From Shinella zoogloeoides (GTDB lineage: Bacteria; Pseudomonadota; Alphaproteobacteria; Rhizobiales; Rhizobiaceae), in contig NZ_CP131130.1 in the NCBI RefSeq assembly GCF_033705735.1, positions 248,001 through 312,000 on the forward strand: a DNA stretch of 64,000 nucleotides, written 5' to 3'. A program made the translations under genes and the position numbers. Positions 23,011 through 64,000 of this stretch are shown one piece after another; the first letter of the stretch is position 1; the number at the start of each line of letters is the position of its first letter. Under the pieces are notes generated by a model, which worked only from the letters and a program-made list of their open reading frames with translations, had not been told where the DNA came from and did no database searches.

Positions 23011-23112
23011 TATTCTCCCACGAAATCAGGCGGTTGGCGGGAAACCGCCGCACAGCAAGTCTGACGCAAGATTGGCTCCGTAGGTTCGCCTCGAACAAGG
23101 ATGGAGCTTGTC

Positions 23113-31666: not shown

Positions 31667-34866
<3,200 letters not shown>

Positions 34867-35044
34867 GGATATCCTGCGGCTAGGGGCCGTCTGGCCGGGG
34901 GCATTACACAAATCTCGGCGAAGTCTACCCTGTAGCGCGGCAGACTTGTCCAGGGCTGTCGTATCCGCGGAGGGCCACGCCTGCAAATTCTGGCCATGAA
35001 AAATTCAGGCTTTCTCCATCTGTCTTACCGGTTTCTTAACGCTA

Positions 35045-36221: not shown

Positions 36222-36479
36222 TTGGGCCGTGCTATTTGCCCTGGCGCGGCCCAACACCTTCATCTTCATCCTCGCACAAGTTTGGCCTTCTAGGTTCGGC
36301 GGCACGATCAGGAAGATTGTGCGCCTTTCACCTCCCGGAAGGCGCTTCGTCCGGGGAGACAGGTCAGCGGTGTTGTCAGGTAAAAGCGTCTTTGCGAATG
36401 AACGTCGAAGCGGCCCGCGGCCTTGCCGCCGGGCCTTCTCTGCATTCATCCGGCACGCAACGGGGCCGGAGGGCGCACG

Positions 36480-47682: not shown

Positions 47683-47949
47683 GTGAATGAGGCAGACGCC
47701 CTCGACATAGCGCAGGCAGCCATCTGGACTGTCATCGTGTCCTCCGGACCGGCCGTGCTCGCGGCCATGGTCGTGGGCGTCGTCATCGCCTTCATCCAGG
47801 CGCTGACGCAGGTGCAGGAAATGACCCTCACCTTCGTCCCGAAGATCCTCGCGATCTTCGTCACCATCGCCATTTCCGCGCCCTTCATCGGCGCCCAGAT
47901 CTCCATCTTCACCGACCTCGTCTTCTCGCGAATACAAAGCGGGTTCTGA
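47683..47949 (+). CDS. fliQ: Flagellar type III export gate protein FliQ
   Basis: This 88-residue protein has two membrane helices (about 15-40 and 52-75) with the family motif VVIAFIQALTQVQEMTLTFVPK. It is an export gate component with FliP and FliR. The start is GTG at 47683, giving VNEADALDIAQ, 9 nt after the flgD stop. In S. meliloti flhA follows directly; here it is about 14 kb away. Confidence 0.95.
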   Translation: MNEADALDIAQAAIWTVIVSSGPAVLAAMVVGVVIAFIQALTQVQEMTLTFVPKILAIFVTIAISAPFIGAQISIFTDLVFSRIQSGF

Positions 47950-47983: not shown

Positions 47984-48003
47984 CGCGCCGTCGCCACGGC
48001 GCG
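47984..48003. terminator. Hairpin after fliQ
   Basis: CGCGCCGT (47984-47991) pairs perfectly with ACGGCGCG (47996-48003) across loop CGCC, 34 nt after the fliQ stop. No T-run follows, so it is a weak terminator or stability element marking the junction with the inserted glycan region. Confidence 0.5.
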
Positions 48004-48098
48004 AAGGTGCTGCGCACGTGGCTGCCCCCCCGTCTTCGGCGCCTCACGTTCCGAGCAAGCTTCAAGTGCGATGACCGGAAATATCCAGATCGTCAGGA

Positions 48099-48147: not shown

Positions 48148-50061
48148 ATGAACATTCACACCGGTTATGCTGCCGCTTCTCAGCAATACAAGAAAGGTGA
48201 ATATCTGGGGGCCCTCCGCACGCTCAACAGCTTGCTCGATACGACCCGGGACGCGAGGACATACTCCCTTCTCGCCAAAACCTTCCTGAAGCTCGACATG
48301 AAATCCGAGGCGGCGGAAGCCTATGCCCTCGCCGGCCGCGAGGAAGGCAGCAGGAAGGAAGAGAACCTTCGCAATGCCATGCAGCTTCATTTCGAATGCG
48401 GCAATGAAGATCAGGTTCTCGTTCTGGCGAGGAACTTCATATCGATCGCCCCGAAGGACCCGGAGATCGCCTATATCATCGCCTCCATCTTCCTGAGGCG
48501 AGGCGAGAAGTCCATCCTCCAGGGCCTGCGCAAGCCCCTTCTCGAAAGCAACAATCCCTCGCATATCGCGCTTGCGATGCGCCTCCTTGCCGACGACCCC
48601 AGGGACGAGGAGAACCTGAGAACGCTCAAGCGCGCCATCAAGCTTTTCCCGAACCATATCGCCATGCAGCTCTTCTATCTGGTGCATGCGCGCGAATTCG
48701 GCGAGTTCGACGACGTGCGGCGTGGCCAGGCGCTCATCGAGAACGAAATCGCGAAGGGCAACCGGGAGGTCGTGCGGAACGACAACCCCTTCCACCATCT
48801 GATGTGGTGCGGCGACGAGAGTCTCAACGGAACGGTTGGCTTCTCCGCCAGCGCCTACGATCCCGCCCTGCCGGAGAAGCGGCGCGGCATGCCGCATGAC
48901 TGGTCGGGAAGGAAGATCCGCATCGGCTATCTGTCGAACGATTTCTGGGAGAACCACGCGACGATGAAGCTCGTCGGAAACGTCCTGGAGCAGCACGACA
49001 GGGACCGTTTCGAGATCACGCTCTTCTGCTACACCGCCCCGCATCACCTCGAAACCAACAGTTTCGATCGCGGCCGCTGGGGCAAGGTCATTTCGGTTGC
49101 CGACATGTCGAATGCGGAAGCCGCCGCCCTGATCCGCAAGGAGAAGATCGACATCCTCGTCGACCTCAAGGGACATACCAAGGGTACCAGGTCCCATATC
49201 CTCAACGAGGCGACCGCGCCGGTCCACGTCGCCTGGCTCGGTTTTCCCGGTACGACCGTCAATGTCGATCTCGACTACGTCATCGGTGACCCGATCGTGC
49301 TGCCGGAAGCCTCGCGCCCGCATTATTACGAAAAATTCTGCCGCCTGCCGGAAACCTACCAGCCGAACGACCCCGTCAGCCGCCCGCGCCTGCAGCCGTG
49401 CAGCCGCGCCGATTTCGGCCTTCCGGAGGACGCCTTCGTCTTTGCATCGTTCAACGGCAATCGAAAGATCAGCCTGAAGGCGATCGATGCCTGGATCAGC
49501 ATCCTCAAAAAGACCGAGAATTCCGTCATCTGGATTCTCGGGGCGAACGCGCGTTTCCAGACGAATATCCGCAAGGAATTCGAAAAGAACCGCATCTCGC
49601 CCAAGCGGGTCTTCTTCACGACGAAGGTCGGCTACGAAGAGCACATCAATCGTATCCAGGTGGCGGATCTCGGGCTCGATACCTATCCCTATAACGGCCA
49701 CACGACGACGTCCGAACAGCTCTGGGCCGGCCTGCCGGTCCTGACGCTCAAGGGCACCAATTTCGCGTCGAGGGTGAGCGAAAGCCTCTTGAACGCAATC
49801 GGCCTTCCCGAACTCGTGGCAGCCGACCAGGCCGACTACATCGACATGGCCGTATCGCTCGCCAAGGACCGGACGCGGATCGCCGAATACAAGAAGCGCT
49901 TGTCCGACAACCGCTTCCTGAAACCCCTGTTCGACAGCGAACGATTCTGCCGCCACCTCGAAAAGGCTTACGAGATGATGGCCGACCGCGCCAAGAGCGG
50001 GCTCGGGCCCGATCACTTCGACGTTCCCGTCTTGCCGGAGCGAACGGCCAGCTTCGCCTAG
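48148..50061 (+). CDS. TPR-containing GT41-type (SPINDLY/OGT-like) glycosyltransferase, second copy
   Basis: This protein has 637 residues. TPR-like helices cover about 1-200 (AAASQQYKKGEYLGALRTLN, AEAYALAGREEG). The catalytic half from about 255 has IRIGYLSNDFWENHATM, LGFPGTTVNVDLDYVIGD, DAFVFASFNGNRKI, DTYPYNGHTTTSEQLWAGLP and LTLKGTNFASRVSESLL, all in GT41 order. It is a paralogue of the enzyme at 32821 but clearly divergent. The start was chosen by AGGGAG 7 nt upstream. It is the first gene of the insertion between fliQ and flhA, on the same strand as the flagellar genes. Likely acceptor is flagellin, by context. Confidence 0.85.
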   Translation: MNIHTGYAAASQQYKKGEYLGALRTLNSLLDTTRDARTYSLLAKTFLKLDMKSEAAEAYALAGREEGSRKEENLRNAMQLHFECGNEDQVLVLARNFISIAPKDPEIAYIIASIFLRRGEKSILQGLRKPLLESNNPSHIALAMRLLADDPRDEENLRTLKRAIKLFPNHIAMQLFYLVHAREFGEFDDVRRGQALIENEIAKGNREVVRNDNPFHHLMWCGDESLNGTVGFSASAYDPALPEKRRGMPHDWSGRKIRIGYLSNDFWENHATMKLVGNVLEQHDRDRFEITLFCYTAPHHLETNSFDRGRWGKVISVADMSNAEAAALIRKEKIDILVDLKGHTKGTRSHILNEATAPVHVAWLGFPGTTVNVDLDYVIGDPIVLPEASRPHYYEKFCRLPETYQPNDPVSRPRLQPCSRADFGLPEDAFVFASFNGNRKISLKAIDAWISILKKTENSVIWILGANARFQTNIRKEFEKNRISPKRVFFTTKVGYEEHINRIQVADLGLDTYPYNGHTTTSEQLWAGLPVLTLKGTNFASRVSESLLNAIGLPELVAADQADYIDMAVSLAKDRTRIAEYKKRLSDNRFLKPLFDSERFCRHLEKAYEMMADRAKSGLGPDHFDVPVLPERTASFA

Positions 50062-50070
50062 TCCAGGTCC

Positions 50071-50102
50071 TTGCCGGGCGGCCCACGGCGGGCGCCCGGC
50101 AA
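50071..50102. terminator. Perfect 10-bp hairpin after the second GT41 gene
   Basis: TTGCCGGGCG (50071-50080) pairs with CGCCCGGCAA (50093-50102), loop 12 nt. It begins 10 nt after the stop. No T-run, so the two glycosyltransferase genes may still be co-transcribed at reduced level. Confidence 0.5.
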
Positions 50103-50154
50103 TAGCGATCCGAAACCTGCCTGCTTCAGTGAAACCCGACAATCGAGCGTACCG

Positions 50155-51648
50155 GTGACGACTTTTCCCCGCACTATCAAACTTGGTCTCGGCAAGGATT
50201 TCAGCGAAGATTGCTTCAATATCGACGTTGCCGCGAGCGCAACCGGCGATGCGGTCCTCGACTTTCGCGTCGCGCCGTTTCTGCCGTCGGAAAAGGCTCT
50301 GCCCACCCGCCGCTTCGGAACCGTCACCCTCAAGAAGAACAGTTTCCGGGAGATCCTGGCGCCCGGTGTCCTGCAGCAGGTGGATGACTTCCAGGCCTTC
50401 ATGACCTCATGCCTGGACCTGCTCGTGGTGGGCGGCGTCATGAAAATCACCGTTCCCTACGATCTGTCCTTCGGAGCCTGGGCCGATCCGAGAAACCGGC
50501 GTGCTTTCAACGAGCTGACATTCGCCAGCTATATCGACGATCAAGGCCATGCCGCCGGCAGCATGCACTGCTTCGAAATGGTATCCCTCGATTACATACC
50601 GGGGCAGATAGCCATGGAGCTTCAGGCGAAGGAAGTTCCCGCGCCGGAGATCGCGCGCTATCCTCGCGCCATCGACGGTCTCAGCGTCCAGCTTCAGAAG
50701 GTTGTCGACCGGAAGGCCGTGGCGACGCCCGCAGCAGCGCAGGACACCAGCCTTCCCCGCACGGCCTCCGGGCCTCAGGCGTTTGCAGGAAGCTGGAGCC
50801 AGTTGAAGGACCGCTTCTGCATCTGGATCGTCACGCCTGAAAACTACATTCACACGCGCGCGTTCTACGAGCCGGCCGTCAGCCTTTCCAGCGCGTTCAG
50901 GCAGCTTGGAGGCTCGGCGCCGATTACGACGCAACCGGCCGAGTGGAAGGGCCGGATTCCCATCATCTATGGCGCCAATGTCCTGACCAAGGACATCGCC
51001 GAGAAGCTGCCGCGCGGCTCGGTGATCTTTAACATGGAGCAGGCGACGACGGATTCGGTGTGGATGTCGTCCAACTATTTCGCATTTCTCAAGACGTTCG
51101 CCGTTCTGGAAAGCAGCGCGGCCAATCTCGAGCGCCTGGCAGGCGTGGGAATAGATCATGCGCAGTTGCTGCAGCTCGGCTATTGCCCAGAATGGACCTG
51201 CATCGAACCGGAGCCGGTCCAGGACATCGACGTTCTCTTCTACGGATCCATGAACGAGCGGCGGCGCGCTATCCTGCTTGCGCTGCATGAGCGGGGCCTG
51301 AAGATCAAGCACCTTTTCGGCGTCTATGGCGCGGAGCGGGATGCCGCGATCGCCCGCGCGAAAGTCGTGATGAACATTCATGCCAAGCCGAACTGGGTTT
51401 TTGAAACCGTCCGGGTTCTCTACCTGCTCGCCAATCGCACCTGCGTCCTTACCGAGGCGGAAGGCGACGATGACGAAGCGGAAGCATATCGCGGCGGCCT
51501 GGCGATGGCGCCCTATGACGATCTCGTCGAAAGGTGCGTGGAGTTGGTCGCAAACGAGGAAGAGCGCCGCCGGCTGGCGGACACCGGCTTCGATCTCGTC
51601 AAGCGCCGCTCGCAGGCTCAAATCCTCTCCGAAGCATTGGGAATCTGA
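50155..51648 (+). CDS. Methyltransferase-like / glycosyltransferase two-domain protein
   Basis: This protein has about 497 residues from GTG at 50155 (VTTFPRTIKLGLGKDF); upstream in-frame sequence overlaps a hairpin and looks non-coding. Residues 1-200 resemble a SAM-methyltransferase-like fold used in polysaccharide clusters (LDFRVAPFLPSEKALPTRR; QAFMTSCLDLLVVGGVMKITVPYD). Residues about 230-497 resemble a glycosyltransferase of the GT-B type (IWIVTPENYIHTRAFYEPAV; IPIIYGANVL; DIDVLFYGSMNERRRAIL; FETVRVLYLLANRTCVLTEA). The split is my reading of the sequence; exact activities are unknown. It converges with the methyltransferase at 51763. Confidence 0.6.
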   Translation: MTTFPRTIKLGLGKDFSEDCFNIDVAASATGDAVLDFRVAPFLPSEKALPTRRFGTVTLKKNSFREILAPGVLQQVDDFQAFMTSCLDLLVVGGVMKITVPYDLSFGAWADPRNRRAFNELTFASYIDDQGHAAGSMHCFEMVSLDYIPGQIAMELQAKEVPAPEIARYPRAIDGLSVQLQKVVDRKAVATPAAAQDTSLPRTASGPQAFAGSWSQLKDRFCIWIVTPENYIHTRAFYEPAVSLSSAFRQLGGSAPITTQPAEWKGRIPIIYGANVLTKDIAEKLPRGSVIFNMEQATTDSVWMSSNYFAFLKTFAVLESSAANLERLAGVGIDHAQLLQLGYCPEWTCIEPEPVQDIDVLFYGSMNERRRAILLALHERGLKIKHLFGVYGAERDAAIARAKVVMNIHAKPNWVFETVRVLYLLANRTCVLTEAEGDDDEAEAYRGGLAMAPYDDLVERCVELVANEEERRRLADTGFDLVKRRSQAQILSEALGI

Positions 51649-51707
51649 GCGTCTTTCCTCCGGCCGAAGACCGTTCGTAGCGCCGGCTATGGCGCGAAAG
51701 CATGGAA

Positions 51708-51746
51708 GCGGCCTGCCCTTCGCTTTCGCGCAAGTCCGCAGGCCGC
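51708..51746. terminator. Hairpin between convergent genes in the glycan region
   Basis: GCGGCCTGC (51708-51716) pairs perfectly with GCAGGCCGC (51738-51746), loop 21 nt, in the 114-nt gap between the two-domain glycosyltransferase and the TylF-like gene. It could stop transcription from both sides. Confidence 0.4.
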
Positions 51747-51762
51747 TCGGCATCCCACCCGG

Positions 51763-52533
51763 TTAAGCTTCCGGGCTTGGCCTTTCCCGCTTTTCCCTGT
51801 TCCAGCGCATCAGCACCTCGGGTGTCACCCGGCAATAGGCCGTGGGGCCGAAGGCCCACGGAATGCTTTCCAGCTCCAGCCCCCAGCGTCCGATGAACTC
51901 GTCGGCAGCCAGGGTTTCCCCGGGCCATTCAGGCTGTGCATATTCATCGAACACGATGATGCCGTTCGGGACCATATGATCGAGAATGTGGTCGAGCACC
52001 GCCTTGGTGGGCTTGTAGACGTCCATGTCCAGCAGAACGAAGGCGAATTTCACGCCCTTCTTTTCCGCGTTGAAGCGGGGGAATGTTTCCGAAACGTCGC
52101 CTTCGACGAGGTGGACGCGTTCCGCAATTCGGCTGACCTTCTTGAAGTGTTCGAACGTATGAATGAACACATCCCGGTTCGTCGCCAAGCCTCCGACCCG
52201 TCTCTGGTCGTGCGGCGTGGACGATAAATCCTCCTCGCTGATTTCCGCAAAGCCGCCAAATCGCTCGAAGCCGTAGAGATGGCGTTGCGAAATGGGCAGC
52301 CTCTCGTGCTGGGCGGCATGGAAGGTCTCGATCAGGCGTGCCAGGAAGAAGAATGTCGAGCCTTTCCAGACACCGAACTCTGCAAGGCTGCCGGGCAACC
52401 CCGTCGTCTTTCCATAAAGCTCGTACAAGGCCATCAGGCGCGCGAATTCCGACTGGCGCATATATGCGGAAAACTTCGTCACCTCGGTAAAGAAGTCGAT
52501 GTTTTCCCCTTGGCTGTTCTGCAGGCTGAACAA
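51763..52533 (-). CDS. TylF/MycF-family O-methyltransferase
   Basis: This 256-residue protein has LAEFGVWKGSTFFFLARLI as the SAM-binding motif, the metal-site motif LLDMDVYKPTKAVLDHI and VFDEYAQPEWPGE, all typical of macrocin-type sugar O-methyltransferases that need a divalent metal. It probably methylates a hydroxyl of a glycan sugar. It is the last gene of the nine-gene minus-strand run starting at rmlC, 63 nt after the reductase. Confidence 0.88.
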   Translation of the reverse strand: MFSLQNSQGENIDFFTEVTKFSAYMRQSEFARLMALYELYGKTTGLPGSLAEFGVWKGSTFFFLARLIETFHAAQHERLPISQRHLYGFERFGGFAEISEEDLSSTPHDQRRVGGLATNRDVFIHTFEHFKKVSRIAERVHLVEGDVSETFPRFNAEKKGVKFAFVLLDMDVYKPTKAVLDHILDHMVPNGIIVFDEYAQPEWPGETLAADEFIGRWGLELESIPWAFGPTAYCRVTPEVLMRWNREKRERPSPEA

Positions 52534-52596
52534 ACTGATTCTCCTATGGTCGAATTACGAAATGCAGGGATGCCGCCGCTGCGGGCGGCACGGCGA

Positions 52597-53823
52597 TCAG
52601 GACACGCGGACGAAACGGCTGAGTTCAAACGGGATATCGTAACCGTCCCAGATGAAATCGAAGTCGAGAGCGGTGCCGGCCGGGCACCAGCGGGATACGC
52701 CCTGTCCGATATGGCTTGCGGCCATCGCGTTCAGTTCCGTCGATGAGAAGCCGAAATGCACGACGGCCTGGTCGTATTCCTCTATCAGCGAGGGAATGTC
52801 ATCGGTTGACGGCAGAAAGACGACTTGCAGGAAGCCGCCTCCGACACGAAGCTCACGGCGTCCCGTGCCTTCGGCAAAGACGCCGGTCACCGCATCGTCC
52901 TGCCAGAGAACCGACGACACTTCGCCCGTGCTCGCCAAGGCGAACGCTTCGGTCATTTTCCGGATGGCGAGCCCCGCGGCTGCCGGCGGCTGCTTTTCAC
53001 GGATGCTCCTGCCCAGATCGGCGAGAAACGCTCTCACCGTCTCCGAATGCGCCGCAGCGTCGCCGACGACATAGAGGGTATGAGGCGAGGCGCAGGCCAT
53101 CTGGTCGAAGACGGCGATATCGTTGGCAAACCGCTGCGCGAGCACATGGCATTCCTGCGGCGTCAAGACGGCGAGGGCCTCGCCCTTGAACAGGGCCCAG
53201 GAAAACCTGTCGCCGAACCAGAGGGCCTTGCCGCCCTTGCGCAGCGGTAGCGATGCGAAGAGATCGACCTTGGCATCGCCGCCCCAGACGACGCGCGCAT
53301 CGCTGCAGGACGAAATTCCGGCGCTTATTTCCGATGCTGCATCGTAGCGAACGAACAACTGGGTTTCGTCAGCCTGCGTCGCCAGTTCCTCGAGAAACAG
53401 GTCACAGACGGATTGCATCGCGCTGCTGATCGTCGAGGGCAGGCGCACCACATTCGCGTTGCCGACCAGATAGGAAAGTATCCAGGAATAGAGAAACACC
53501 GTCTCGACATTCTGGGGCGGCAGATGAAACACGAGGCCCCGGGCGCGGGCCTGGGTCGTTTCCGGCATCCGTCGCAGATAGCTCTCTTTCAACCGCTGAA
53601 GGGCGGATTTGCGCGTCCAGAAGGCGAAATGCGTGACGAAGGCGGGCAGGCTCGCCCGTTTTTCGAGGAGCTTCGCGCTGACGGCGGCGACGGCGGCAAG
53701 CCTGTCGTCGGAAAAGGGCAGGACGGTCCGGTGCCGGATGCGCTTATCGAGATCCTTGACGAAGTTCGCCTCGGATATCTCCCGGATGGATCCTTTCGTG
53801 CCGAGAACCTGCACATCCGTCAT
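52597..53823 (-). CDS. LuxC-like acyl-CoA/acyl-protein reductase
   Basis: This 408-residue protein belongs to the LuxC family of aldehyde-dehydrogenase-fold fatty acid reductases. It has a long N-terminal region (LPPQNVETVFLYSWILSYLVGNANVVRLP), the nucleotide-binding part (VVWGGDAKVDLFASLPL) and the catalytic cysteine C244 in FDQMACASPHTLYVVG. LuxC accepts an acyl group from LuxE and reduces it with NADPH to an aldehyde. The start ATG overlaps the luxE-like stop by 4 nt. It has no bioluminescence partners here. Confidence 0.85.
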   Translation of the reverse strand: MTDVQVLGTKGSIREISEANFVKDLDKRIRHRTVLPFSDDRLAAVAAVSAKLLEKRASLPAFVTHFAFWTRKSALQRLKESYLRRMPETTQARARGLVFHLPPQNVETVFLYSWILSYLVGNANVVRLPSTISSAMQSVCDLFLEELATQADETQLFVRYDAASEISAGISSCSDARVVWGGDAKVDLFASLPLRKGGKALWFGDRFSWALFKGEALAVLTPQECHVLAQRFANDIAVFDQMACASPHTLYVVGDAAAHSETVRAFLADLGRSIREKQPPAAAGLAIRKMTEAFALASTGEVSSVLWQDDAVTGVFAEGTGRRELRVGGGFLQVVFLPSTDDIPSLIEEYDQAVVHFGFSSTELNAMAASHIGQGVSRWCPAGTALDFDFIWDGYDIPFELSRFVRVS

Positions 53824-54893
53824 CGCATCGCCCTCGTTGTTGCGGCCACCACGTCGCTGCAGCCCCGCAGCTCGGCTCTTGCCACCCGGCCGGTTATCCG
53901 GACGGCCTTGCCGAAGCGCCCGCCGATGCCGCTGTCCACCTCGACGATGACGCCGCGATCCTCCGTCAGGATGCTGTGACCGGGATAGGAGAGGGGGAGC
54001 AGGGAAAGTGTCTGGACGACGCCTTCCTCGCCGGGAGCGGCCGGCTGCCAGTCGCCCGGCCTCCGCACGATGATGTCCGTGAAATTCGGAGGGTGGAGCA
54101 GGCCGTCCTCGCCTTCCGTGAAGACGGAACCGATCTGTTCCACGAAGCCATAGAAATTGCAGATGTTTCTCAAGCCGAACCGCCGGCCGAGGGCCGCGCG
54201 GAAATCGGGGTTGGAAACCTTCTGCTCCTCCAGGCTCTTCCAGCCGCCGGAGTGGACGAGGATCCCGTTCGAAAGGTCGAACTCCCCATCGGCGCACATC
54301 TGGTAGAGCCTCGACCATACGAGGAAGGTGAAGCCGAAGATCAGGAAGGACTGCCCCTGGTATTTTTCGATGAAGGACAGAAGCGTATCGCGCTGCAGGT
54401 CGAGTTCGCTGTCGAGGGCGAATGTCGCGTTTGCGCCGAATTTCATCATGCCGAGCACGCCGGCACCCCGCGCACTGAGATCGCCCGGCTTGAGGACATC
54501 CTTCGTGTCGATGACGAGAAATGGCTGGCGCCTTTCCCCGAGAATGGAGCGGAAGGTCGACACCAGGGCCTGCGACTGGCGTGCGGCGGTGGCCTTGTCG
54601 ACGACGATGCGGCTTGGAACCTGTCCCGACGTGCCGCTTGAGCGCAGGGTCATCAGCGGCGTATCCGTCGACGACAGTTCGAGCTTCTTGAAGAGGCCGA
54701 CGGGAAGGAACGGAATGTCCTCCAGGCGCTCGTAGCGTCGTGGCCCGCCCCAGGCGGCATCGATCATGCGGGCATAGGGAGCGCAGCGCTCGTAGTGGTA
54801 CCGCACGAGATCGTTCAGCTCCGGCAGAAGGAGCGCTTCCTTGCTTGCCTGCCTGTGGGAATGCGCCGGTGTCTGGAGCAGTTCTTCAAACAT
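53820..54893 (-). CDS. LuxE-like acyl-protein synthetase
   Basis: This protein has 357 residues from ATG at 54893; a start at 54917 is possible but would overlap the upstream gene by 32 nt. The adenylate-forming signature (LRSSGTSGQVPSRIVVD) and the LuxE core (FLIFGFTFLVWSRLYQ; HSGGWKSLEEQKVS; NFYGFVEQIGSVF) are present. It ends with RGCSDVV, matching the C-terminal cysteine region that carries the acyl group in LuxE (C345 here). It would activate an acid with ATP and hand it to the LuxC-like enzyme. Confidence 0.88.
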   Translation of the reverse strand: MFEELLQTPAHSHRQASKEALLLPELNDLVRYHYERCAPYARMIDAAWGGPRRYERLEDIPFLPVGLFKKLELSSTDTPLMTLRSSGTSGQVPSRIVVDKATAARQSQALVSTFRSILGERRQPFLVIDTKDVLKPGDLSARGAGVLGMMKFGANATFALDSELDLQRDTLLSFIEKYQGQSFLIFGFTFLVWSRLYQMCADGEFDLSNGILVHSGGWKSLEEQKVSNPDFRAALGRRFGLRNICNFYGFVEQIGSVFTEGEDGLLHPPNFTDIIVRRPGDWQPAAPGEEGVVQTLSLLPLSYPGHSILTEDRGVIVEVDSGIGGRFGKAVRITGRVARAELRGCSDVVAATTRAMR

Positions 54894-56352
54894 CGCCGAT
54901 TTCCCGAAGCCGGGCATAGTCCGTCTTGCCGTTCTCCTTGCGGGGAATGGCGGAGACGTGCCGAAGGACGAATGCCGTGGAAGGGATGCGGTATCGGCCC
55001 GCCAGTATCCGCAGGAACGCCTTTATCGCGCGCGCATCGCCGCTCTCGTGGCAGACGACGATCTTCTCGTCATCGTCGAAACAGCTCACGCTCGCGACTT
55101 CGCCGATATCGAGCTCTACCGCATCGAGAGCGATCCGCAGGCCCGAAACCTTCGCAAATCGCTTCACGCGCCCCTTCAGGAACAGGAAGCCATCGGCGTC
55201 GAGCCAGCCTATGTCGCCGGTTGCAAGGACGCCTGCGAGCTCGTCTCCACGCGCAAGATCGCTGCGCGAGGACGCATAGCCCAGCATGACATTCGGCCCG
55301 TCATAAATCACATTCCCGACGTTGCCGGCCGGAAGGGCGTCGCCCTGATCGTCGAGGATACGGATTTGCCCGCCCGCCAACGGCTTGCCGACGGAGCCCA
55401 GCTTTTCGGGCAATGCCCCGCCGGGCGTCGTCGTCATGCGCGGAGAGGCTTCCGTCTGGCCGTACATCACATGAAAATTCCCGTTGCGGTGCCGGACATT
55501 CTCAAGGATGCGCCCCTGAATGCGCGTGTCGAGGGCGCCGCCGGCCTGTGTAAACGTCGTGACCGATGCCGGCACCAGCTCGAAGCCGAAACGCGCCAGG
55601 GTCGCGTAATGGAAGGGCACGCCGGGAAAGTGCGTGCATTCCGCCCCGGCAACCTTTTGCCAGAAGCTCGGGGAAGTGACCGCATCGTTCATGACGAAAA
55701 CGCGTCCCCCGACCTGCAGATGGGAGGTGACCAACGACAGGCCGTAGGAATAGTGCAAGGGCAGGTGGGCGATCGCAACGCTCCGGCTGTCGATCCGCAG
55801 CACGTCCGCGATCTGAAGCGCATTCGTGACGACGGCGGCCCCGGACAGCCGGACAAAGCGTGCGCTTCCCGTCGTTCCCGACGTCGCCAGCATCAGCTGA
55901 AGGTTCGGTGCGATCGGTGCTTTTCCGCGTTCCTCCTGCTGCCTGACGGCCCAGTACGCGGCTGAGGCGCTGTCGAAACCCCGGGCGAACCCCTCGGCCT
56001 CCGCAATCGGACTGGAAGACAGCAGGATATCCGGCCGGTATGCGTCGATCAGACCGGAGAGCTTCTCATCGGGCAGGGCCGGATCGACAAGCATGACCGC
56101 GTGCCCCGCCGCTGCCGCGGCCAGGATGGAGATCACGGTGGCCGCGCGGTTCTCGCTCGCCAGAAAAACCAGCCCCTTTTCGGGCCGGGCAATGATCTTT
56201 GCCAGCGCAATGCTCATCGCGCGCAGCTCCTCCCGGCTGATCCAGGCGCCGCCGGTGTCGTCCTGCAGGGCGGGAGCCTTCTCCACCGCGGGAAGGACAG
56301 GCAGCAGGCCGCCGCAGAGGGGATCGGGTCCAGCGGGAATGCGCTCCATCAT
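54886..56352 (-). CDS. Acyl-AMP ligase (adenylate-forming enzyme)
   Basis: This 488-residue ANL-superfamily enzyme has the phosphate-binding loop LATSGTTGSARFVRLS (about 155), YGQTEASPRM, the LATGDIGWLDADGFLF motif and the catalytic lysine near the end in RKENGKTDYARL. It likely activates a short carboxylic acid and loads it onto the acyl carrier protein encoded two genes upstream. It overlaps the SDR gene by 4 nt. The acid is not identifiable from sequence. Confidence 0.85.
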   Translation of the reverse strand: MMERIPAGPDPLCGGLLPVLPAVEKAPALQDDTGGAWISREELRAMSIALAKIIARPEKGLVFLASENRAATVISILAAAAAGHAVMLVDPALPDEKLSGLIDAYRPDILLSSSPIAEAEGFARGFDSASAAYWAVRQQEERGKAPIAPNLQLMLATSGTTGSARFVRLSGAAVVTNALQIADVLRIDSRSVAIAHLPLHYSYGLSLVTSHLQVGGRVFVMNDAVTSPSFWQKVAGAECTHFPGVPFHYATLARFGFELVPASVTTFTQAGGALDTRIQGRILENVRHRNGNFHVMYGQTEASPRMTTTPGGALPEKLGSVGKPLAGGQIRILDDQGDALPAGNVGNVIYDGPNVMLGYASSRSDLARGDELAGVLATGDIGWLDADGFLFLKGRVKRFAKVSGLRIALDAVELDIGEVASVSCFDDDEKIVVCHESGDARAIKAFLRILAGRYRIPSTAFVLRHVSAIPRKENGKTDYARLREIGDV

Positions 56353-57083
56353 ATCACCATGCCGCCATCGACGCCGATGACCTGGCCGGTGACATACCGG
56401 GAGAGGTCGCTTGCGAGGAAGAGGATGACATCGGCGACCTCCTCGGCCGTTCCAGGCCGCGCCAGGCCGATGCTGCGCAAGGTCTCCGCCTTGATTTCCG
56501 GGCTGAGGCCCTCCGTGAGCGCTGTCTCTATGAAACCCGGAGCGACCGCATTGACGCGAATATTATGACGGGCGAGTTCCTTGGCCGCAGCCAGCGTCGC
56601 ACCGATAACACCGGCCTTCGATGCGGCATAGACGAGCTGTCCCGCAACCCCGCGCACGCCGACGATGGAAGACAGGTTGACGATGCTGCCGCCCGTTCTG
56701 GCCATGAGGCGCGCGGCGGCCTGCGTGAAATGTACGACGCCCGCGACATTGGTCTGCAGGCTCTCGTGAATATCCGCATCGGAAATCATGCCGGTCATTG
56801 CAGGCCGCATGATGCCGGCATTGTTCACGAGGATATCCAGGCGCCGGTAGCGGGAGAAAACCTGCTTCACCGCAGCTTGAGAAAAATCCGCGACGCCGAC
56901 GTCGCCTTCGATCAGGAGAAGGCGCTCGGGATCGAACATGTCGAGGACCGGCTCGCCGATCTGCCGCGCGACGAGGACGACCGATGCCCCCTGGTCCGCG
57001 AGCCTTCGGGCGGCAGCAAGGCCGATGCCCCGGGAGGCGCCGGTAATGAGTGCGACACGTCCGGTAAGATCAGCCGGCGTCAT
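56349..57083 (-). CDS. FabG-like short-chain dehydrogenase/reductase
   Basis: This 244-residue classical SDR has the cofactor motif TGASRGIG (14-21), NNAGIM, the serine of VNLSSIVG and the YAASKAG catalytic Tyr-Lys pair, ending in TGQVIGVDGGMVI. It is closest in pattern to 3-oxoacyl-ACP reductases, fitting the neighbouring ACP and ligase genes. The start lies within the end of the ACP gene (14-nt overlap). Confidence 0.9.
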   Translation of the reverse strand: MTPADLTGRVALITGASRGIGLAAARRLADQGASVVLVARQIGEPVLDMFDPERLLLIEGDVGVADFSQAAVKQVFSRYRRLDILVNNAGIMRPAMTGMISDADIHESLQTNVAGVVHFTQAAARLMARTGGSIVNLSSIVGVRGVAGQLVYAASKAGVIGATLAAAKELARHNIRVNAVAPGFIETALTEGLSPEIKAETLRSIGLARPGTAEEVADVILFLASDLSRYVTGQVIGVDGGMVI

Positions 57084-57306
57084 ATCGCGACATGATTTCG
57101 ACGGCCTTGTCGAAATTGCTCATGCTCAGGATCTCGCGGGTCTCCAGCATCGCGTCGAATTCCTCCTCCAGCGCCGCCACCAGTGTCATGTGACCCACCG
57201 AGGTCCATTCCGGATATTCGAGATAGGCCAGCTCGGACGTCTCCACCGGCTCTTCGAGGTCGAAGGCGCGGATAAACGTTTTCAGGACTCTACTCTGCGT
57301 GTTCAT
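57070..57306 (-). CDS. Acyl carrier protein
   Basis: This 78-residue acidic helical protein has the phosphopantetheine attachment motif in variant form, WTSVGHMTLVAALEEEF, with Ser36 as the attachment residue (usual ACPs read DSL). The length and following acidic helix fit carrier proteins from specialised pathways rather than fatty acid synthesis. It overlaps the SDR gene by 14 nt, and a conserved motif precedes it (57365-57384). Confidence 0.85.
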   Translation of the reverse strand: MNTQSRVLKTFIRAFDLEEPVETSELAYLEYPEWTSVGHMTLVAALEEEFDAMLETREILSMSNFDKAVEIMSRYDAG

Positions 57307-57364
57307 CGTGGCTCCTCACTGGCCGAATGAGGCGCGGTGCCCCATGGAGAGCGGTAAAGGGAAT

Positions 57365-57384
57365 GGCTTGCTTGAAACTGGACC
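57365..57384 (-). promoter_or_regulatory. Shared motif upstream of the acyl carrier protein gene
   Basis: GGCTTGCTTGAAACTGGACC (plus-strand reading) recurs at 59970-59988 as GGCTTGTTTGAAGCTGACC, upstream of rmlC. A shorter form, CCGCTTGAAAACTGG, lies 8-22 nt upstream of the GNAT start at 61794. All three are in front of minus-strand glycan genes in the same orientation. Confidence 0.35.
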
Positions 57385-57390
57385 GCCCGT

Positions 57391-58266
57391 TCAGCGGCCC
57401 GCCCCAAGTATCTTCTCGGCGAGGTAGCGGCCGTAGGAGCTTCCCCTCATGCCATGCGCAAGCGCCGCGAGCTGTTCTGCATCGATAAAGCCGTTGGCAT
57501 AGGCGATCTCTTCCGGACTGGAGATCTTGAAGCCCTGCCGCCGCTCGAGCGTGGCAACGAAATTGCCGGCTTCCAGGAGGCTGTCGGTCGTTCCGGTATC
57601 GAGCCAGGCATAGCCGCGCCCCATCAGGGTCACGCTCAGGCGCCGCTGATCCAGGTAGACCCGGTTCACATCGGAGATTTCCAGCTCCCCGCGCGCCGAG
57701 GGTTTCAGGTTCCTCGCTATATCGACGACGTCCGCGTCATAGAAATAAAGGCCGGTTACCGCCCAGTTGGATTTCGGCACGGCGGGCTTTTCCTCGATGG
57801 AGACGGCCCGGACCTGCTCATCGAATTCGACGACACCGTACCGTTCGGGATCGTGGACCTGATAGGCGAAAATCCTCGCTCCTTCGCGAAGATCAACGGC
57901 CTCCTTCAGCAGGTCGGTCAGGCCATGACCGAAGAATATGTTGTCGCCCAGAATGAGGCAGGACGGCTTGCCGTCGACGAAGTCGGCCGCAATCACATAG
58001 GCCTGCGCGAGGCCGCGGGGCTCGGGTTGTTCCGCATATTGGATCGAGATCCCCCAGGCGGAGCCATCCCCCAGAAGGTTCTGGAAGTGGGGCAGGTCCC
58101 GGGGCGTCGAGATCAGGAGTATGTCCCTGATCCCCGCGAGCATCAGCGTCGATATGGGATAATATATCATCGGCTTGTCGTAGATCGGCATCAGCTGCTT
58201 CGACATGGCGAGTGTCATCGGATGAAGACGCGTGCCGTTACCGCCCGCCAGAATGATGCCTTTCAT
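57391..58266 (-). CDS. rmlA: Glucose-1-phosphate thymidylyltransferase RmlA
   Basis: This 291-residue enzyme makes dTDP-glucose from glucose-1-phosphate and dTTP. The nucleotide motif ([17 protein letters not shown]), [18 protein letters not shown] and [12 protein letters not shown] are diagnostic. The start is at MKGII (GGGG upstream); in-frame sequence before it is the rmlB-rmlA gap. It lies 40 nt after rmlB. Confidence 0.96.
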
Positions 58267-58306
58267 CGACTGGAACCCCGAAGAATATTGAAGGGAAAAT
58301 GCTGCA

Positions 58307-59362
58307 TCAGCTGGCGTAAGCTTTCTGGGCGGTTTCCGCGAAGGTGTTGTCCGCGACAAGCGGCCCCCACCAGGCTTCGTTCTCGAGATACCAATGAACG
58401 GTCGCGCGTATGCCGCTGTCGAAGTCGTAAGCCGCCTGCCAGCCCAGTTCGGCCTCCAGCTTCGAGGCGTCGATCGCATATCGGAAATCATGCCCGGGCC
58501 GGTCGGCGACGAAGCGGATCAGGTCGGCATGCGGGCCGGATGCCGGGCGCAGTTCGTCCATGATCGCGCAGATGCGGTTTACGACATCGATGTTCCGGCG
58601 CTCGTTGCGCCCGCCGACATTGTAGGTGGATCCCGCTCTGCCCTTGCGGGAGATGAGGTCGAGCGCGCGGACATGGTCCGAGACATGGAGCCAGTCGCGT
58701 ATGTTGCGACCCGTGCCATAGACAGGCAGCGGCGCGCCCCTCGATGCCTTGACGATGATCGACGGTATCAGCTTCTCCGGATGCTGGTGCGGTCCGTAGT
58801 TGTTCGAGCAGTTGGAAACCAGAACGGGCAGTCCGTAGGTCCGTCCCCATGCTGCGACGAGATGGTCGGAAGCGGCCTTCGATGCGGAATAGGGCGAGCT
58901 TGGATCGTAAGGCGTCGTCTCGTCGAAGAGGCCGTCGCTTCCCAGCGAGCCAAAGACCTCGTCCGTCGAGACATGCAGGAAGCGAAAGGCTTCCCGCTCC
59001 GCGCCGGAGAGCGAGGACCAGTAGGACCGCGCCTGCTCAAGAAGCACGAACGTCCCCATGACGTTCGTCTCGATAAAGGCGCGCGAGCCGCTTATCGAAC
59101 GGTCCACATGGCTCTCCGCCGCGAGATGGATGACACGGTCCGGCCGGAAATCCTGAAACGCCAGCCGCATGAGAGGAGCGTCGCAGATGTCGGCTTTCAG
59201 GAAGCGGTAGTGGCCCTGCCCGCTTACGGCCGCCAGGGAGGCGAGATTGCCGGCATAGGTGATCTTGTCGACGTTCAGGACCTCGTCGCCCTTGTCCAGG
59301 ACAAGGTGGCGCACCAGCTCGGAACCTATGAAACCCGCGCCTCCCGTTACGAGCGTCCGCAT
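58307..59362 (-). CDS. rmlB: dTDP-glucose 4,6-dehydratase RmlB
   Basis: This 351-residue SDR-type enzyme produces dTDP-4-keto-6-deoxyglucose, the branch point for rhamnose and dTDP-amino sugars. [14 protein letters not shown] binds [35 protein letters not shown] and [19 protein letters not shown] are family signatures. It starts 2 nt after the rmlC stop. Confidence 0.97.
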
Positions 59363-59364
59363 GA

Positions 59365-59925
59365 TCAGTTTTCCTTTTCAAGGATCGCCAGATCCCGCAA
59401 CCGCGGATGGCGACCGTCTTTTTCCGAGAGCGTTGCCTGCTTGAGGTCGAAGGGCCAGTCTATGCCGAGATCGGGGTCGTCCCAGGCGAGGCCCCGATCG
59501 TGGTCGGGGCTGTAATAGGCGGTCACCTTGTAGGCGACGAGGCAATCGGGCGTGAGGGTGCAGAAGCCGTGGGCGAACCCCGGTGGAATCCAGAACTGAA
59601 CGGCATCCCCGCCGCTCATGACGGTGGAAACGTGCTGCCCGAAGGACCTCGAACCCGGCCGGATATCCACGGCCACGTCGAAAATGGTCCCGGCAAGACA
59701 GGTGACGAGCTTGCCCTGGGCGCATGGATCCATCTGGAAGTGCAGCCCGCGGACGGTGCCGGGATTCTTGGAATGGGAGCGATTGTCCTGGACGAAGACG
59801 TGGTCGCCGGCCGCCTCCCGAAACGCGTCTTGCCGAAACGTTTCGGTGAAGTATCCCCGCTCGTCCTGAAACAGGCGCGATTCAAAAAGCAGGGGCCCTT
59901 CGATATTCAGGCGTTTTATGTGCAT
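59365..59925 (-). CDS. rmlC: dTDP-4-dehydrorhamnose 3,5-epimerase RmlC
   Basis: This 186-residue cupin has [23 protein letters not shown] (active His), [24 protein letters not shown] and [21 protein letters not shown], as in true RmlC rather than the related 3,4-ketoisomerases. It produces dTDP-4-keto-L-rhamnose. The next enzyme of the rhamnose route, RmlD, is not in this window. It is the first gene of the minus-strand operon that runs to 51763. Confidence 0.94.
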
Positions 59926-59969
59926 GCGCTCGGCGGACCTCTGGATGACGCTGCCGTTTTATAAACAGC

Positions 59970-59988
59970 GGCTTGTTTGAAGCTGACC
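59970..59988 (-). promoter_or_regulatory. Shared motif upstream of rmlC
   Basis: GGCTTGTTTGAAGCTGACC (plus-strand reading) lies 45 nt before the rmlC start, in the 185-nt divergent gap with the aminotransferase gene, next to GTTTATAAAAC (minus-strand reading), which looks like an AT-rich promoter core. Confidence 0.35.
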
Positions 59989-60110
59989 AAACGCATCCTG
60001 CGCCGCCATCGTCCTTCGGCGGCCGTCGCGGCGGTGCGAAAGGTTCAGCCTCGCGTAAGGGAGCGTTGAAAGAATGATCGGGCTCCCCTCATCTCATCTG
60101 GAAGATCGCC

Positions 60111-61271
60111 TTGGCAATTCAGCTCTTCGTTCCCCGCTTTCATGTCGACGAATGCCTCGAGCAGATTCGGGAGTGCCTTGAGAAGGGCTGGACCGGCATG
60201 GGCTTCAAGACCCTCGAAATGGAAGCCGCGTGGAAGAGCTATACGGGGCTGGCGAACGCGCATTTCCTGAGCTCCAACACCGCCGGCCTTCATCTCGCGC
60301 TCGAGGTTTTCCGCCGCCGCTTCGGATGGCGGGAAGAAGACGAGATCATCACGACGCCGCTGACCTTCGTCTCCTCCAACCACGCCATCCTCTATGCCGG
60401 CCTGAAGCCCGTCTTTGCCGATGTCGACGAGTATCTCTGCCTCGATCCGCAGAGCGTGCGCGACCGGATCACCCCCAGGACCCGTGCCGTGATGTTCGTC
60501 GGTCTCGGCGGCAATAGCGGGCAATATGAGGCAATCCGGGACCTCTGCCGTGAACACGGGCTGAAGTTCATTCTGGACGCGGCGCATATGAGCGGCACGC
60601 GGATCGACGGCAGGCATGCCGGGCATGACGCGGACGTCTCGGTCTTCAGCTTCCAGGCCGTCAAGAATCTTCCGACGGCGGATTCCGGCATGATCTGCTT
60701 CGCTGAGGAAGAAGATGACGCCGCCGTCAGGAAGCTAAGCTGGCTCGGCATCAACAAGGACACGTTCTCGCGCACCGCGGCGCAGGGCGACTACAAGTGG
60801 ATGTATGACGTCGAAACGCTCGGCTACAAATACCACGGCAACTCGATCATGGCCGCCATCGCGCTCGTGCAGTTGAAGTATCTCGACGAGGAGAACACGT
60901 ATCGCCGGCAGCTTGCGGCCTGGTATGAGGAGGCGCTGCAAGGCCGCGATATCGGCCTTGTGCCGGTCGCCGCAAATTGCCAGTCATCCCGCCACCTGTT
61001 CCAGGTCCTCGTCCCCCGGCGCAACGAGACATTGGCGCAACTGAATGCCCGCCAGATATTCCCGGGTGTCCATTACCGCGACAATACCGAATACAGCCTC
61101 TATGCGTCCGGTGCCGGAACCTGCCCGCGCGCGGCGCAGGCGAGCAATTCCATAATCTCCCTGCCGCTGCACCTTTCCATGACACGGGAAGATGTCGGAA
61201 CCGTCGCGGAAAACCTCAGGGACATTGTGTCCCAGGCCTCGCCTACAGGAACCGGGCGTATTTCTGCCTGA
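60111..61271 (+). CDS. DegT/DnrJ/EryC1-type sugar aminotransferase
   Basis: This 386-residue PLP enzyme has the conserved start of nucleotide-sugar aminotransferases (WTGMGFKTLEMEAAWKSYTG; LSSNTAGLHLALEV; DEIITTPLTFVSSNHAILYA), DAAHMSGTR, and the PLP lysine K185 in FSFQAVKNLPTADSGM. It would aminate a 4-keto (or 3-keto) dTDP-sugar made by RmlA/RmlB. The start is TTG at 60111 after TGGAAG. Its 3' end overlaps the convergent acetyltransferase gene by 29 nt. Confidence 0.9.
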   Translation: MAIQLFVPRFHVDECLEQIRECLEKGWTGMGFKTLEMEAAWKSYTGLANAHFLSSNTAGLHLALEVFRRRFGWREEDEIITTPLTFVSSNHAILYAGLKPVFADVDEYLCLDPQSVRDRITPRTRAVMFVGLGGNSGQYEAIRDLCREHGLKFILDAAHMSGTRIDGRHAGHDADVSVFSFQAVKNLPTADSGMICFAEEEDDAAVRKLSWLGINKDTFSRTAAQGDYKWMYDVETLGYKYHGNSIMAAIALVQLKYLDEENTYRRQLAAWYEEALQGRDIGLVPVAANCQSSRHLFQVLVPRRNETLAQLNARQIFPGVHYRDNTEYSLYASGAGTCPRAAQASNSIISLPLHLSMTREDVGTVAENLRDIVSQASPTGTGRISA

Positions 61272-61794
61272 TCCTGTCCCAGTCGGGACGCAGGATTTCA
61301 TGCTCCACCATGTCGTGCCTGCGGTCGCCGATCTGCAAGGCGGCGGGATGGAGGCCGCAGCGGCGCGCACCATAGATCTCATGAAATGTCAGGACGCGGA
61401 TATTGCCCTCGGCCGTGTGGGAAAACAGCCGTTTCATGTCCAGCGTCTCGAAGATGAAACGGTGCAGAAGCAGGACCGATTCCAGAAGCACGGGGCTGGA
61501 TTCGCCCATCACCCAGCGGCCCCATTCCATCTCGCCGTCGCCCACCGGATTGTAGGCGGCGAAAAAGCCGATGGGCGTGTCCCTGCCCAGCGGCTGGATG
61601 GCGAACATGTAGTCCTCCGGTCGGGTCATCTGGCGCCTTACCCAGGCGCGCTGCTCGTCCAGCGTAATGTCGAGCGGTGGCAGGAATTCCGTCAGATCGG
61701 GGCGCTGGCGAAGGGAAAGCATCAGCGGCGCGTCCGCCTCCTCGATGGGCCTCAGCATTACTTTCCGTCCGACCAAGGCTGACTGCGTCGCCAT
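61243..61794 (-). CDS. GNAT-family N-acetyltransferase (sugar N-acyltransferase candidate)
   Basis: This protein has 183 residues from ATG at 61794; upstream in-frame codons overlap a likely promoter. The RimJ/RimL-type GNAT fold is visible (VMLRPIEEADAPLMLSLRQRP; FAIQPLGRDTPIGFFAAYNP; LESVLLLHRFIFETLDMKRLF; HEIYGARRCG). Next to a sugar aminotransferase, it probably acylates the new amino group. The 3' end overlaps the aminotransferase gene by 29 nt, tail to tail. Confidence 0.85.
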   Translation of the reverse strand: MATQSALVGRKVMLRPIEEADAPLMLSLRQRPDLTEFLPPLDITLDEQRAWVRRQMTRPEDYMFAIQPLGRDTPIGFFAAYNPVGDGEMEWGRWVMGESSPVLLESVLLLHRFIFETLDMKRLFSHTAEGNIRVLTFHEIYGARRCGLHPAALQIGDRRHDMVEHEILRPDWDRIRQKYARFL

Positions 61795-62041
61795 TATCCC
61801 ACCGCTTGAAAACTGGAAGACCGTGCACCGGACCAAATCAGGCCGATGGTCCGGCCGCACTCTAGTTTCTTCTGCAGCTTGGCGAAAGGATTGCAAGAGG
61901 CTATCCGGCCGGCGCCGGGACATCGGGGCCCGCGCGCCGGCCTGCCACCCTCGCGCAAGCTTCGCCCTCTATGTCGTCATGTGAAATGGGCGACGCGTGT
62001 GGTGCGTCGCGGCCTCTCATGACGAGACGGGACGCATTCAG

Positions 62042-64000
62042 ATGGCGCAAGTACCGGCAATCAACCTTCCGAAGGTAAGCCCCAGCGGCCGCGATATCGC
62101 ATTCGCCGTGGGCATCCTGACGATCCTGTCGATCCTCTTCCTGCCGATCCCGGCCTTCATGATCGACATCGGCCTTGCCTTCTCGATCGCCTTTTCCGTG
62201 CTCATCCTCATGGTGGCGCTGTGGATCCAGCGGCCGCTCGATTTCTCGTCCTTCCCGACGGTCCTCCTCATCGCGACCATGGTGCGCCTCGCGCTCAACA
62301 TCGCGACGACCCGCGTCATCCTTTCCCACGGCAACGAGGGGCACGATGCGGCGGGCGGCGTGATCGCGGGCTTTGCCAGCCTCGTCATGTCCGGCGACTT
62401 CGTCATCGGGATCATCGTCTTCATGATCCTGATCGTGGTGAACTTCATCGTCATCACCAAGGGCGCGACGCGTATCGCCGAAGTCGGCGCCCGCTTCACC
62501 CTCGATGCCATCCCCGGCAAGCAGATGTCGATCGACGCCGACCTTTCCGCCGGCCTCATCGACGAGAAGCAGGCGCAGCTTCGCCGCCGCGAGCTGGAGG
62601 AGGAAAGCTCCTTCTTCGGCTCGATGGACGGTGCCTCGAAATTCGTGCGCGGCGATGCCATCGCCGGCCTTCTCATCACCGCCATCAATGTCTTCGGCGG
62701 CATCGTCATCGGCTATTTCCGCCACGGCATGGAGCTCGGCGAAGCCGCCGACGTCTTCGTGAAGCTGTCGGTCGGCGACGGCCTCGTCTCGCAGATTCCC
62801 GCCCTCATCGTCTCGCTCGCCGCCGGCCTCATCGTCTCGCGCGGCGGCACGGCAGGCTCCACCGACCAGGCGGTCATCAACCAGCTCTCCGGCTATCCGC
62901 GCGCGCTCTTCGTCGCCTCCGGCCTTATGACGCTGCTCGCGGTCATGCCGGGCCTGCCCTTCTTCCCCTTCATGGTCCTCGGCGGCGTCATGGCCTTCGG
63001 CGCCTGGATCATCCCGCGCCGTATCGAGGAGGAGAACCGCCTCAAGCGCGAAGCGGAGGCCCAGCAGGTCCAGGCGACGCGCGAGCAGGAGAAGGATTCC
63101 GTCAAGTCGGTGCTGAAGACCGCCGAGATCGAGCTGCTGCTCGGCAAGCAGGTTTCCACGCGTCTTCTCGGCGCGCATCAGGAACTGGCCTTCCGCGTCG
63201 GCAAGATGCGCAAGAAGTTCGCCGCGCAATACGGCTTCGTCGTGCCGGAGATCAAGGTCTCCGACGACATCACCATCCCGGACAAGTCCTACCAGATCCG
63301 CATCCACGGCACGACGATCGCCTCCAACATCGTGCGCGTCGGCGAAGTGCTGGTCGTCACCGGCGGCGGGCGCAAGCCGAGCGTGCCGGGCGACGATATC
63401 CGCGAGCCCGCCTTCGGCATGCCGGCCGTCTCGATCCTCGAGACCTTCGCCGACGACCTGCGCCGCGAGGGCTTCCACCCGATCGACAACGTCTCGGTGG
63501 TGCTCACGCACCTTTCCGAGGTCATCCGCAACAACCTGCCGCAGCTTCTCTCCTACAAGGACGTGAAGATCCTGATCGAGCGCCTCGATCCGGAATACCG
63601 CAAGCTCGCCGACGAGATCTGCTCCTCGCACATGTCCTATTCGGGCCTGCAGGCGGTGCTGAAGCTGCTGCTCGCCGAGCGCGTCTCCATCCGCAACCTG
63701 CATCTCATCCTCGAAGCGGTCGCCGAGCTTGCCCCGCATGTGCGCAAGACCGAGCAGATCGTCGAGCATGTACGCATCCGCATGGCGCAGCAGATCTGCG
63801 GCGACCTCACCGACAACGGCGTGCTGCCGGTGCTGCGCCTCGGCAACAAGTGGGACATGGTGTTCCACCAGGCGCTCAAGCGCGATTCGAAGGGCGAGAT
63901 CGTCGAGTTCGACATCGATCCGCGCCAGCTCGAGGAATTTTCCGAGCAGGCGACCCGGGTTATCCGCGAGTTTCTCGACCGCGGCACGCCCTTCGTACTG
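62042..64000 (+). CDS. flhA: Flagellar type III export gate protein FlhA, 5' part (partial)
   Basis: The first 653 codons run off the window edge; no stop is reached. The N-terminal half has eight predicted membrane helices with family motifs [55 protein letters not shown] and [16 protein letters not shown]. The cytoplasmic half begins near 340 and forms the docking ring for chaperone-substrate complexes. It starts 247 nt after the divergent acetyltransferase gene, in its own promoter region, separated from fliQ by the glycan genes. Confidence 0.97.

Follow-up and report, generated by a model that had tools for sequence, protein, structure and literature searches.

Flagellin glycosylation islands are already known, and the locus described here, 13 genes lying between the flagellar genes fliQ and flhA in 64,000 nucleotides of Shinella zoogloeoides (contig NZ_CP131130.1, positions 248,001 to 312,000, called the window in its whole length), has counterparts of its parts in several described systems. 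As described for the Aeromonas polar flagellin islands of group II, the same ordered set orf1, orf2, orf3, luxE and luxC (acyl carrier protein (ACP), 3-oxoacyl-ACP reductase, AMP-dependent synthetase, LuxE and LuxC) is accompanied by glycosyltransferases and, in some of the strains, positioned within or close to the flagellar genes; the authors suggest that this cassette provides a liposugar component, and an unknown 102-Da unit ends the flagellin glycan of the reference strain (PMC7874193). Whereas the Aeromonas system as described there attaches its glycan via pseudaminic acid and Maf transferases (PMC7874193), Shinella has no NeuB and a GT41 transferase. In enterobacterial flagellin islands, ACP, LuxE, LuxC, a ligase and FabG are present in part of the types, with variable content and lower GC as here, but those islands are found in the fliDC/fliAZ region (PMC4875605). 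Based on gene families, insertion and genomic context, the Shinella locus is probably a horizontally acquired flagellin glycosylation island; its combination of parts and its place are new to us, and none of the matches listed from the open-licence PMC literature describes one like it for Shinella, Rhizobium or Sinorhizobium.

Further systems resemble single aspects of the locus. The viosamine island of Pseudomonas syringae, which modifies flagellin with N-(3-hydroxy-1-oxobutyl)-2-O-methylviosamine, a modification lost without the reductase VioR, is like the Shinella island in its aminotransferase, methyltransferase, acyltransferase, reductase and ACP and in the predicted dTDP-amino-dideoxyhexose with N-hydroxyacyl and O-methyl groups, but uses the 3-oxoacyl-ACP synthase III VioS where Shinella has a ligase, LuxE and LuxC, and an RmlC which suggests an L-sugar (PMC3927599). 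FlmG of Caulobacter, by its description a soluble glycosyltransferase of tetratricopeptide repeat (TPR) and GT-B parts acting on flagellin, can be likened in its GT-B part to OGT2, the GT41 protein of the island, while its sugar is pseudaminic acid (PMC7591256), for which NeuB is absent from the Shinella genome. The tetronate genes VC0248-VC0252 of Vibrio cholerae O1 are described as making an acyl group that is placed on a dideoxy sugar at its amino group, with the O-antigen as target (PMC3441752).

An insertion between fliQ and flhA

The 13 genes at 48148-61794 (Table 1), identified by Pfam, NCBIfam and PDB sequence searches, have open frames throughout, and none belongs to a flagellar family. 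The preliminary description of this DNA, which had reported fliQ and flhA as split by 13 non-flagellar genes, is thereby borne out, as glycosyltransferase, methyltransferase, nucleotide-sugar and acyl families were matched; the flagellar order is, as it had also stated, intact on both sides, with flgK, flgL, flaF, flbT, flgD and fliQ in normal order to the left and flhA to the right, the start of which is most likely the ATG at 62042, as this start and its ribosome-binding region are conserved.

Of 121 genomes searched, 98 gave an FlhA and 96 a FliQ. The fliQ-flhA gap was compared in 70 genomes, consisting of that of the window, those of 19 congeneric species and 50 from outside the genus, with 28 genomes of distant FlhA left out. 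In each of the 19 congeners the gap measures 59-252 bp and the island is missing at the site, which makes the interruption a real and specific one. Among the 50 genomes outside the genus, the gap is at most 700 bp in 39 and 736-8770 bp in nine, and the two genes are far apart in the remaining two. The island is, on the other hand, found at the same place in S. zoogloeoides PQ7, where 20.2 kb around it align at 98.0%; identity between the two strains is 95.7-99.1% for the island genes (LuxE 99%) and 99.3% for the flgK-fliQ flank. A further genome labelled as the same species (G121), with a ligase at 98%, may be PQ7 itself.

In composition, the mean GC content at third codon positions (GC3) of the island genes is 0.784 versus 0.872 in 20 flagellar-cluster genes (Mann-Whitney P 4e-6), and the GC content of the region is 0.618 versus 0.645 for the remaining window. 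Of the 121 genomes, LuxE is found in two, the window's own and, at 43%, G028, the fused methyltransferase-glycosyltransferase in three, and DegT, under a strict E threshold of 1e-70, in the window's own genome only. Since the island is present at the same place in PQ7 and missing in 19 of 19 congeners, with intact flanks and lower GC3, its insertion is supported; the comparison of the interval across relatives and the GC profile, both proposed in the preliminary description, agree in this. The left junction directly follows the fliQ stop, and on the right the island ends shortly ahead of a block whose conservation begins at about 61947; by these positions it replaced the short leader and left the upstream element of flhA intact.

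Traces of mobility, which the preliminary description had not seen either, were not found: ARAGORN detects no tRNA in the window, and the Pfam scan, which covered the 13 proteins and no shorter open reading frames, matches neither a transposase nor an integrase family. The longest word common to both flanks is the 9-mer GCAAGCTTC, at 48055 and 61955, which is the core of the flhA upstream element and no att site. Acquisition at a tRNA or via a shared repeat, the latter lacking any flank-shared word above 9 bp, hence finds no support. The hairpin said to mark the left edge does exist (47984-48003, eight perfect pairs), but with no T run, and with surroundings no more stably folded than shuffled sequence (z 0.42), it cannot by itself be taken as a marker. 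The right-hand gap at 61800-61945, by contrast, exceeds shuffled sequence in folding stability (z -2.48; 3 of 200 shuffles).

From the part of the large gaps that was covered, in which no glycan gene occurs, we rejected the idea that glycan genes generally collect at the fliQ-flhA junction as a hotspot. Reading frames were read in five of the nine large gaps (G036, G070, G027, G057 and G040; the other four measure 736-1067 bp), and ten proteins from the first four of these were scanned; the proteins scanned are aroA, hisD, UPF0262, Maf-like, DUF1217, an MFS transporter, a sigma factor, YCII, an acyl-CoA dehydrogenase and one without match. The first five of these lie between fliQ and flhA of G036 (locus L072, 2965-11754), where the same junction is broken by unrelated content.

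Table 1. Genes and upstream elements of the window, with positions counted from its first nucleotide
Feature	Position	Strand	Evidence
fliQ, left flank	47683-47949	+	PF01313, 89 bits
OGT2, GT41 O-glycosyltransferase, N-terminal part TPR-like	48148-50061	+	PF13844, 250 bits; human OGT and XcOGT by sequence
Fused methyltransferase-glycosyltransferase	50155-51648	+	PF13524; PF13489 in relatives of 41-51% identity
TylF-type sugar O-methyltransferase	51763-52533	-	PF05711; nearest solved relative CalS11, E 4.6e-25
LuxC-type acyl reductase	52597-53823 (start 53823)	-	PF05893; Cys244 kept; no PDB sequence match
LuxE-type acyl-protein synthetase	53820-54917	-	PF04443; 7xc6 LuxE; Cys353 kept
AMP-forming acyl ligase	54886-56352	-	PF00501
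FabG-like short-chain dehydrogenase/reductase (SDR)	56349-57083	-	PF13561; Ser139, Tyr152, Lys156 kept
ACP	57070-57306	-	No Pfam match; Ser36 kept in relatives
RmlA, glucose-1-phosphate thymidylyltransferase	57391-58266 (start 58266)	-	PF00483, 253 bits
RmlB, dTDP-glucose 4,6-dehydratase	58307-59362	-	PF16363, 289 bits
RmlC, 3,5-epimerase	59365-59925	-	PF00908; TIGR01221, 214 bits (cut-off 156)
DegT-family sugar aminotransferase, nearest PseC and ArnB types	60111-61271	+	PF01041; PseC model 221 bits, below cut-off 424; TlmJ, ArnB
GNAT sugar N-acyltransferase	61243-61794	-	PF13302; sole PDB match FdhC, E 2.5e-10
flhA, right flank, runs off the window	62042-64000	+	PF00771, 749 bits
OGT1, second GT41 gene, between flagellin genes, common to the genus	32821-34986	-	GT41 match
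UDP-galactopyranose mutase, adjoins OGT1	31667-32824	-	PF03275, 266 bits
Conserved element upstream of flhA	61950-61972	+	0/400 shuffles; conserved across congeners; intact after insertion
Weak copy of the element 98 nt before OGT2	48050-48072	+	Score 1.8; 16/400 shuffles reach the score
Copy of the element 70 nt before the ACP gene	57354-57376	-	Score 7.1; 1/400 shuffles; nine island starts tested

The GT41 proteins and their probable link to flagellin

The genome's only two GT41 genes, OGT2 and OGT1, are both located in the flagellar cluster. OGT2 has a C-terminal GT41/GT-B domain in which the OGT motifs are aligned, and designed TPR proteins match its residues 7-121 in the PDB sequence search (E 6.5e-5 and 1.9e-4). 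Nine relatives of OGT2, of 43-57% identity, were read with 1.5 kb flanks; five of them (L040, L041, L042, L046 and L049) adjoin fliP and/or flagellin, and four (L043, L044, L045 and L047) have no flagellar match. Five of the nine are preceded, 93-142 nt upstream, by an element of the type found before flhA (0-2 of 400 shuffles).

OGT1 belongs to the genus at large. A GT41 match is present in all 20 genus genomes, the window's own included, and 18 of the 19 congeners carry it at a distance of 13-20 kb from fliQ on one contig, G016 being the exception with fliQ and GT41 on different contigs. One congener, G005, has as its only GT41 match an OGT2 relative at 57%, located between fliP and flagellin; in the remaining 18 the identity to OGT2 is 35-38%, and 13 of them, those whose locus was fetched, show 68-87% to OGT1. 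The OGT1 gene overlaps the gene of a UDP-galactopyranose mutase, between two flagellin genes, and of the 13 congener loci, whose flanks were fetched at short length, six have such a mutase beside GT41. With the GC3 of OGT1 and mutase native-like (0.84 and 0.86), this suggests a galactofuranose-type flagellin sugar as a genus-wide layer.

As the literature search found no usable published flagellar promoter motif of Sinorhizobium meliloti (PMC3616915 is without any word beginning "flagell"), a 23-bp matrix of our own was built from the elements upstream of flhA in relatives. The element, CTCGCGCAAGCTT-N7-TAG-like, is found at 10011, 36271 and 61950 and in weaker form at 23061 and, on the minus strand, 14554; the matrix has its top scores before flhA, before fliF and before the gene at 36423 (each reached by 0 of 400 shuffles), and the predicted site is probably a flagellar promoter or regulator site.

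The acyl cassette and the predicted sugar

LuxE relatives numbered 4502 among the candidates scored, 349 stretches encode one, and the cassette was read in the best 80 of these 349 loci. ACP, SDR, ligase and LuxC all surround LuxE in 62 of the 80, that of PQ7 included, and in seven of the 18 loci without the full set LuxE is close to a contig end. The catalytic residues, counted in aligned relatives with the PQ7 locus left out, are invariant: LuxE Cys353 and LuxC Cys244 in 78 of 78 each, ACP Ser36 and SDR Ser139, Tyr152 and Lys156 in 68 of 68, and the TSG-TG motif of the ligase in 76 of 76. No ketosynthase family is found among the 13 island proteins.

An independent case of the combination of flagellin, cassette, DegT and GT41 is a Gemmatimonadetes locus (L098, 3190-17922) with fliD, flagellin, a TPR protein with a weak heptosyltransferase match, the cassette, a Gfo/Idh oxidoreductase, DegT and GT41. 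In many Nonomuraea loci (L116, L123, L129, L130, L134, L135 and others), the cassette occurs with a DegT gene 5-6 kb upstream, a recurrence which suggests that it serves other glycans or metabolites too. G028 has one cluster of GT41, RmlC-like protein, C-methyltransferase, ligase, LuxE, LuxC and ACP (L074) and another of three tandem GT41 stretches related to OGT2 (L075).

The tetronate enzymes of V. cholerae are LuxE/LuxC-like with a ligase, an iron alcohol dehydrogenase, in the place of which Shinella has the SDR, and another acyltransferase class. Scores far under the cut-offs of the NCBIfam luminescence models (26 of 750 bits for LuxC and 49 of 550 for LuxE), together with the precedents of short groups in viosamine, tetronate and FdhC, which we take to be a sugar N-acyltransferase transferring a hydroxybutanoyl group, make a short hydroxyacyl group the likelier cassette product; a long-chain aldehyde as in luminescence was ranked below it. 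The literature search found no paper on the FdhC enzyme, nor on tetronate with RfbN.

As regards the sugar, the RmlD family has its best genome match at 69 bits versus 353 for a Stenotrophomonas RmlD; with no RmlD-grade match in the island or the genome, the RmlABCD set for dTDP-L-rhamnose is incomplete. There is equally no NeuB/PseI-family match in the genome, in a search whose control finds NeuB in Caulobacter, a negative that argues against a nonulosonic acid. Elsewhere the genome has just one more RmlC, clustered with a C-methyltransferase, an epimerase and transferases, and CalS11, nearest to the TylF-type enzyme, is named a TDP-rhamnose 3'-O-methyltransferase. RmlC without RmlD, DegT, the CalS11-like enzyme, the FdhC-like GNAT and the lack of NeuB would together fit an O-methylated, N-acylated 4-amino-4,6-dideoxy-L-hexose, which we propose with far less confidence than the role of the island.

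Gene families, insertion, conserved catalytic residues and a genome without NeuB or RmlD-grade match can be taken as established from the sequence; beyond these, we infer every reaction of the following pathway, the reaction order, the acyl group and the flagellin target. RmlA, RmlB and RmlC would convert glucose-1-phosphate to dTDP-4-keto-6-deoxy-L-hexose, the keto group of which, as no RmlD-grade match exists, may be aminated by DegT with no reduction to rhamnose, and the TylF-type enzyme would O-methylate the sugar. In parallel, LuxE and LuxC would turn an acid into the aldehyde and the SDR the aldehyde into an alcohol, whereupon the ligase would load the hydroxyacyl product on the ACP and the GNAT transfer it to the amino group. 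OGT2 would then glycosylate flagellin in the cytoplasm, with the fused methyltransferase-glycosyltransferase adding or trimming a further sugar, and glycosylation would precede export through the gate that contains FliQ and FlhA.

The dihydroxybutanoyl group C4H6O3 has, at 102.03, the mass of the Aeromonas 102-Da unit, a coincidence of mass which alone is no identification. A bolder proposal, on which we would place only a small part of our belief, is that the cassette is a dedicated route to a C4 dihydroxyacyl cap (3-deoxytetronyl-like, 102.03 Da) on flagellin sugars, identical to the Aeromonas unit, and that the donor of the Shinella GT41 is a dTDP-linked 4-acylamido-4,6-dideoxy-L-hexose, to our knowledge not a known donor class for GT41.

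Alternative targets and what the island may mean for rhizobia

A role in flagellin glycosylation, the simplest reading in the preliminary description, is the best-supported function, because OGT2 relatives occur at flagellin loci, both GT41 genes lie in the flagellar cluster, the cassette is as in published islands and genes for O-antigen or capsule export are missing from the island. Several observations weigh against it. The N-terminus of OGT2 matches TPR_14 at 17 bits, below the Pfam cut-off of 23.5; OGT2's own upstream element is weak, being reached by 16 of 400 shuffles, and eight of the 11 non-island starts tested in the flagellar cluster are without the element. A flagellar gene lies within 10 kb of the cassette in only two of the 80 loci, PQ7 itself and L098, by a scan with alphaproteobacterial queries at E 1e-4 which distant flagellins may escape and in which several loci are short, and the GT41 and cassette cluster of G028 is on a contig other than that of fliQ.

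The occurrence of dTDP-sugar genes and cassette away from flagellar genes, together with the tetronate acylation of V. cholerae O1, described as part of the O-antigen (PMC3441752), would fit an island whose product is, or modifies, a surface polysaccharide (O-antigen, capsule or exopolysaccharide) and whose place at the flagellar locus is due to chance. We consider this unlikely, as none of the families matched by the 13 proteins is a flippase, polymerase, ABC exporter, initiating transferase or transporter and no polytopic protein is among them, whereas a family of protein O-glycosyltransferases, GT41, is present with relatives at flagellin loci.

Less probable still is a target other than flagellin, either an adhesin or other surface protein, or a small metabolite acylated by the cassette. 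GT41 enzymes modify many proteins, and the nearest named cassettes, L084, L099 and L086 of Azorhizobium and Hyphomicrobium, stand behind a GNAT without a sugar gene among the scanned neighbours, which weighs against the flagellin role as well; two of these GNATs, 72% alike, are no more than remote relatives of the Shinella GNAT. Arguments against such a target are the flagellar location, the occurrence of OGT2 relatives beside flagellin genes and the flhA-type element that precedes five of the nine. That the island is a recent acquisition, silent or decaying, as its limitation to the species in our sample and the weak element at OGT2 might suggest, is hardly credible with all 13 frames open, catalytic residues kept and the genes so similar in the two strains.

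The flagellins of Rhizobium leguminosarum stain as glycoprotein, with no sugar or glycosylation gene identified in the part of that report cited here (PMC2936354), and a passage of PMC8310070 counts the glycosylation of Agrobacterium flagella among unexplored questions. If flagellin is indeed the target of the Shinella island, relatives of the rhizobia would gain a defined locus for flagellin glycosylation, its sugar predicted, and the widespread LuxE-LuxC cassette, for the product of which the papers cited offer guesses only, would be tied to a measurable mass. The two GT41 genes moreover suggest two layers of flagellin transferases, one common to the genus and one acquired.

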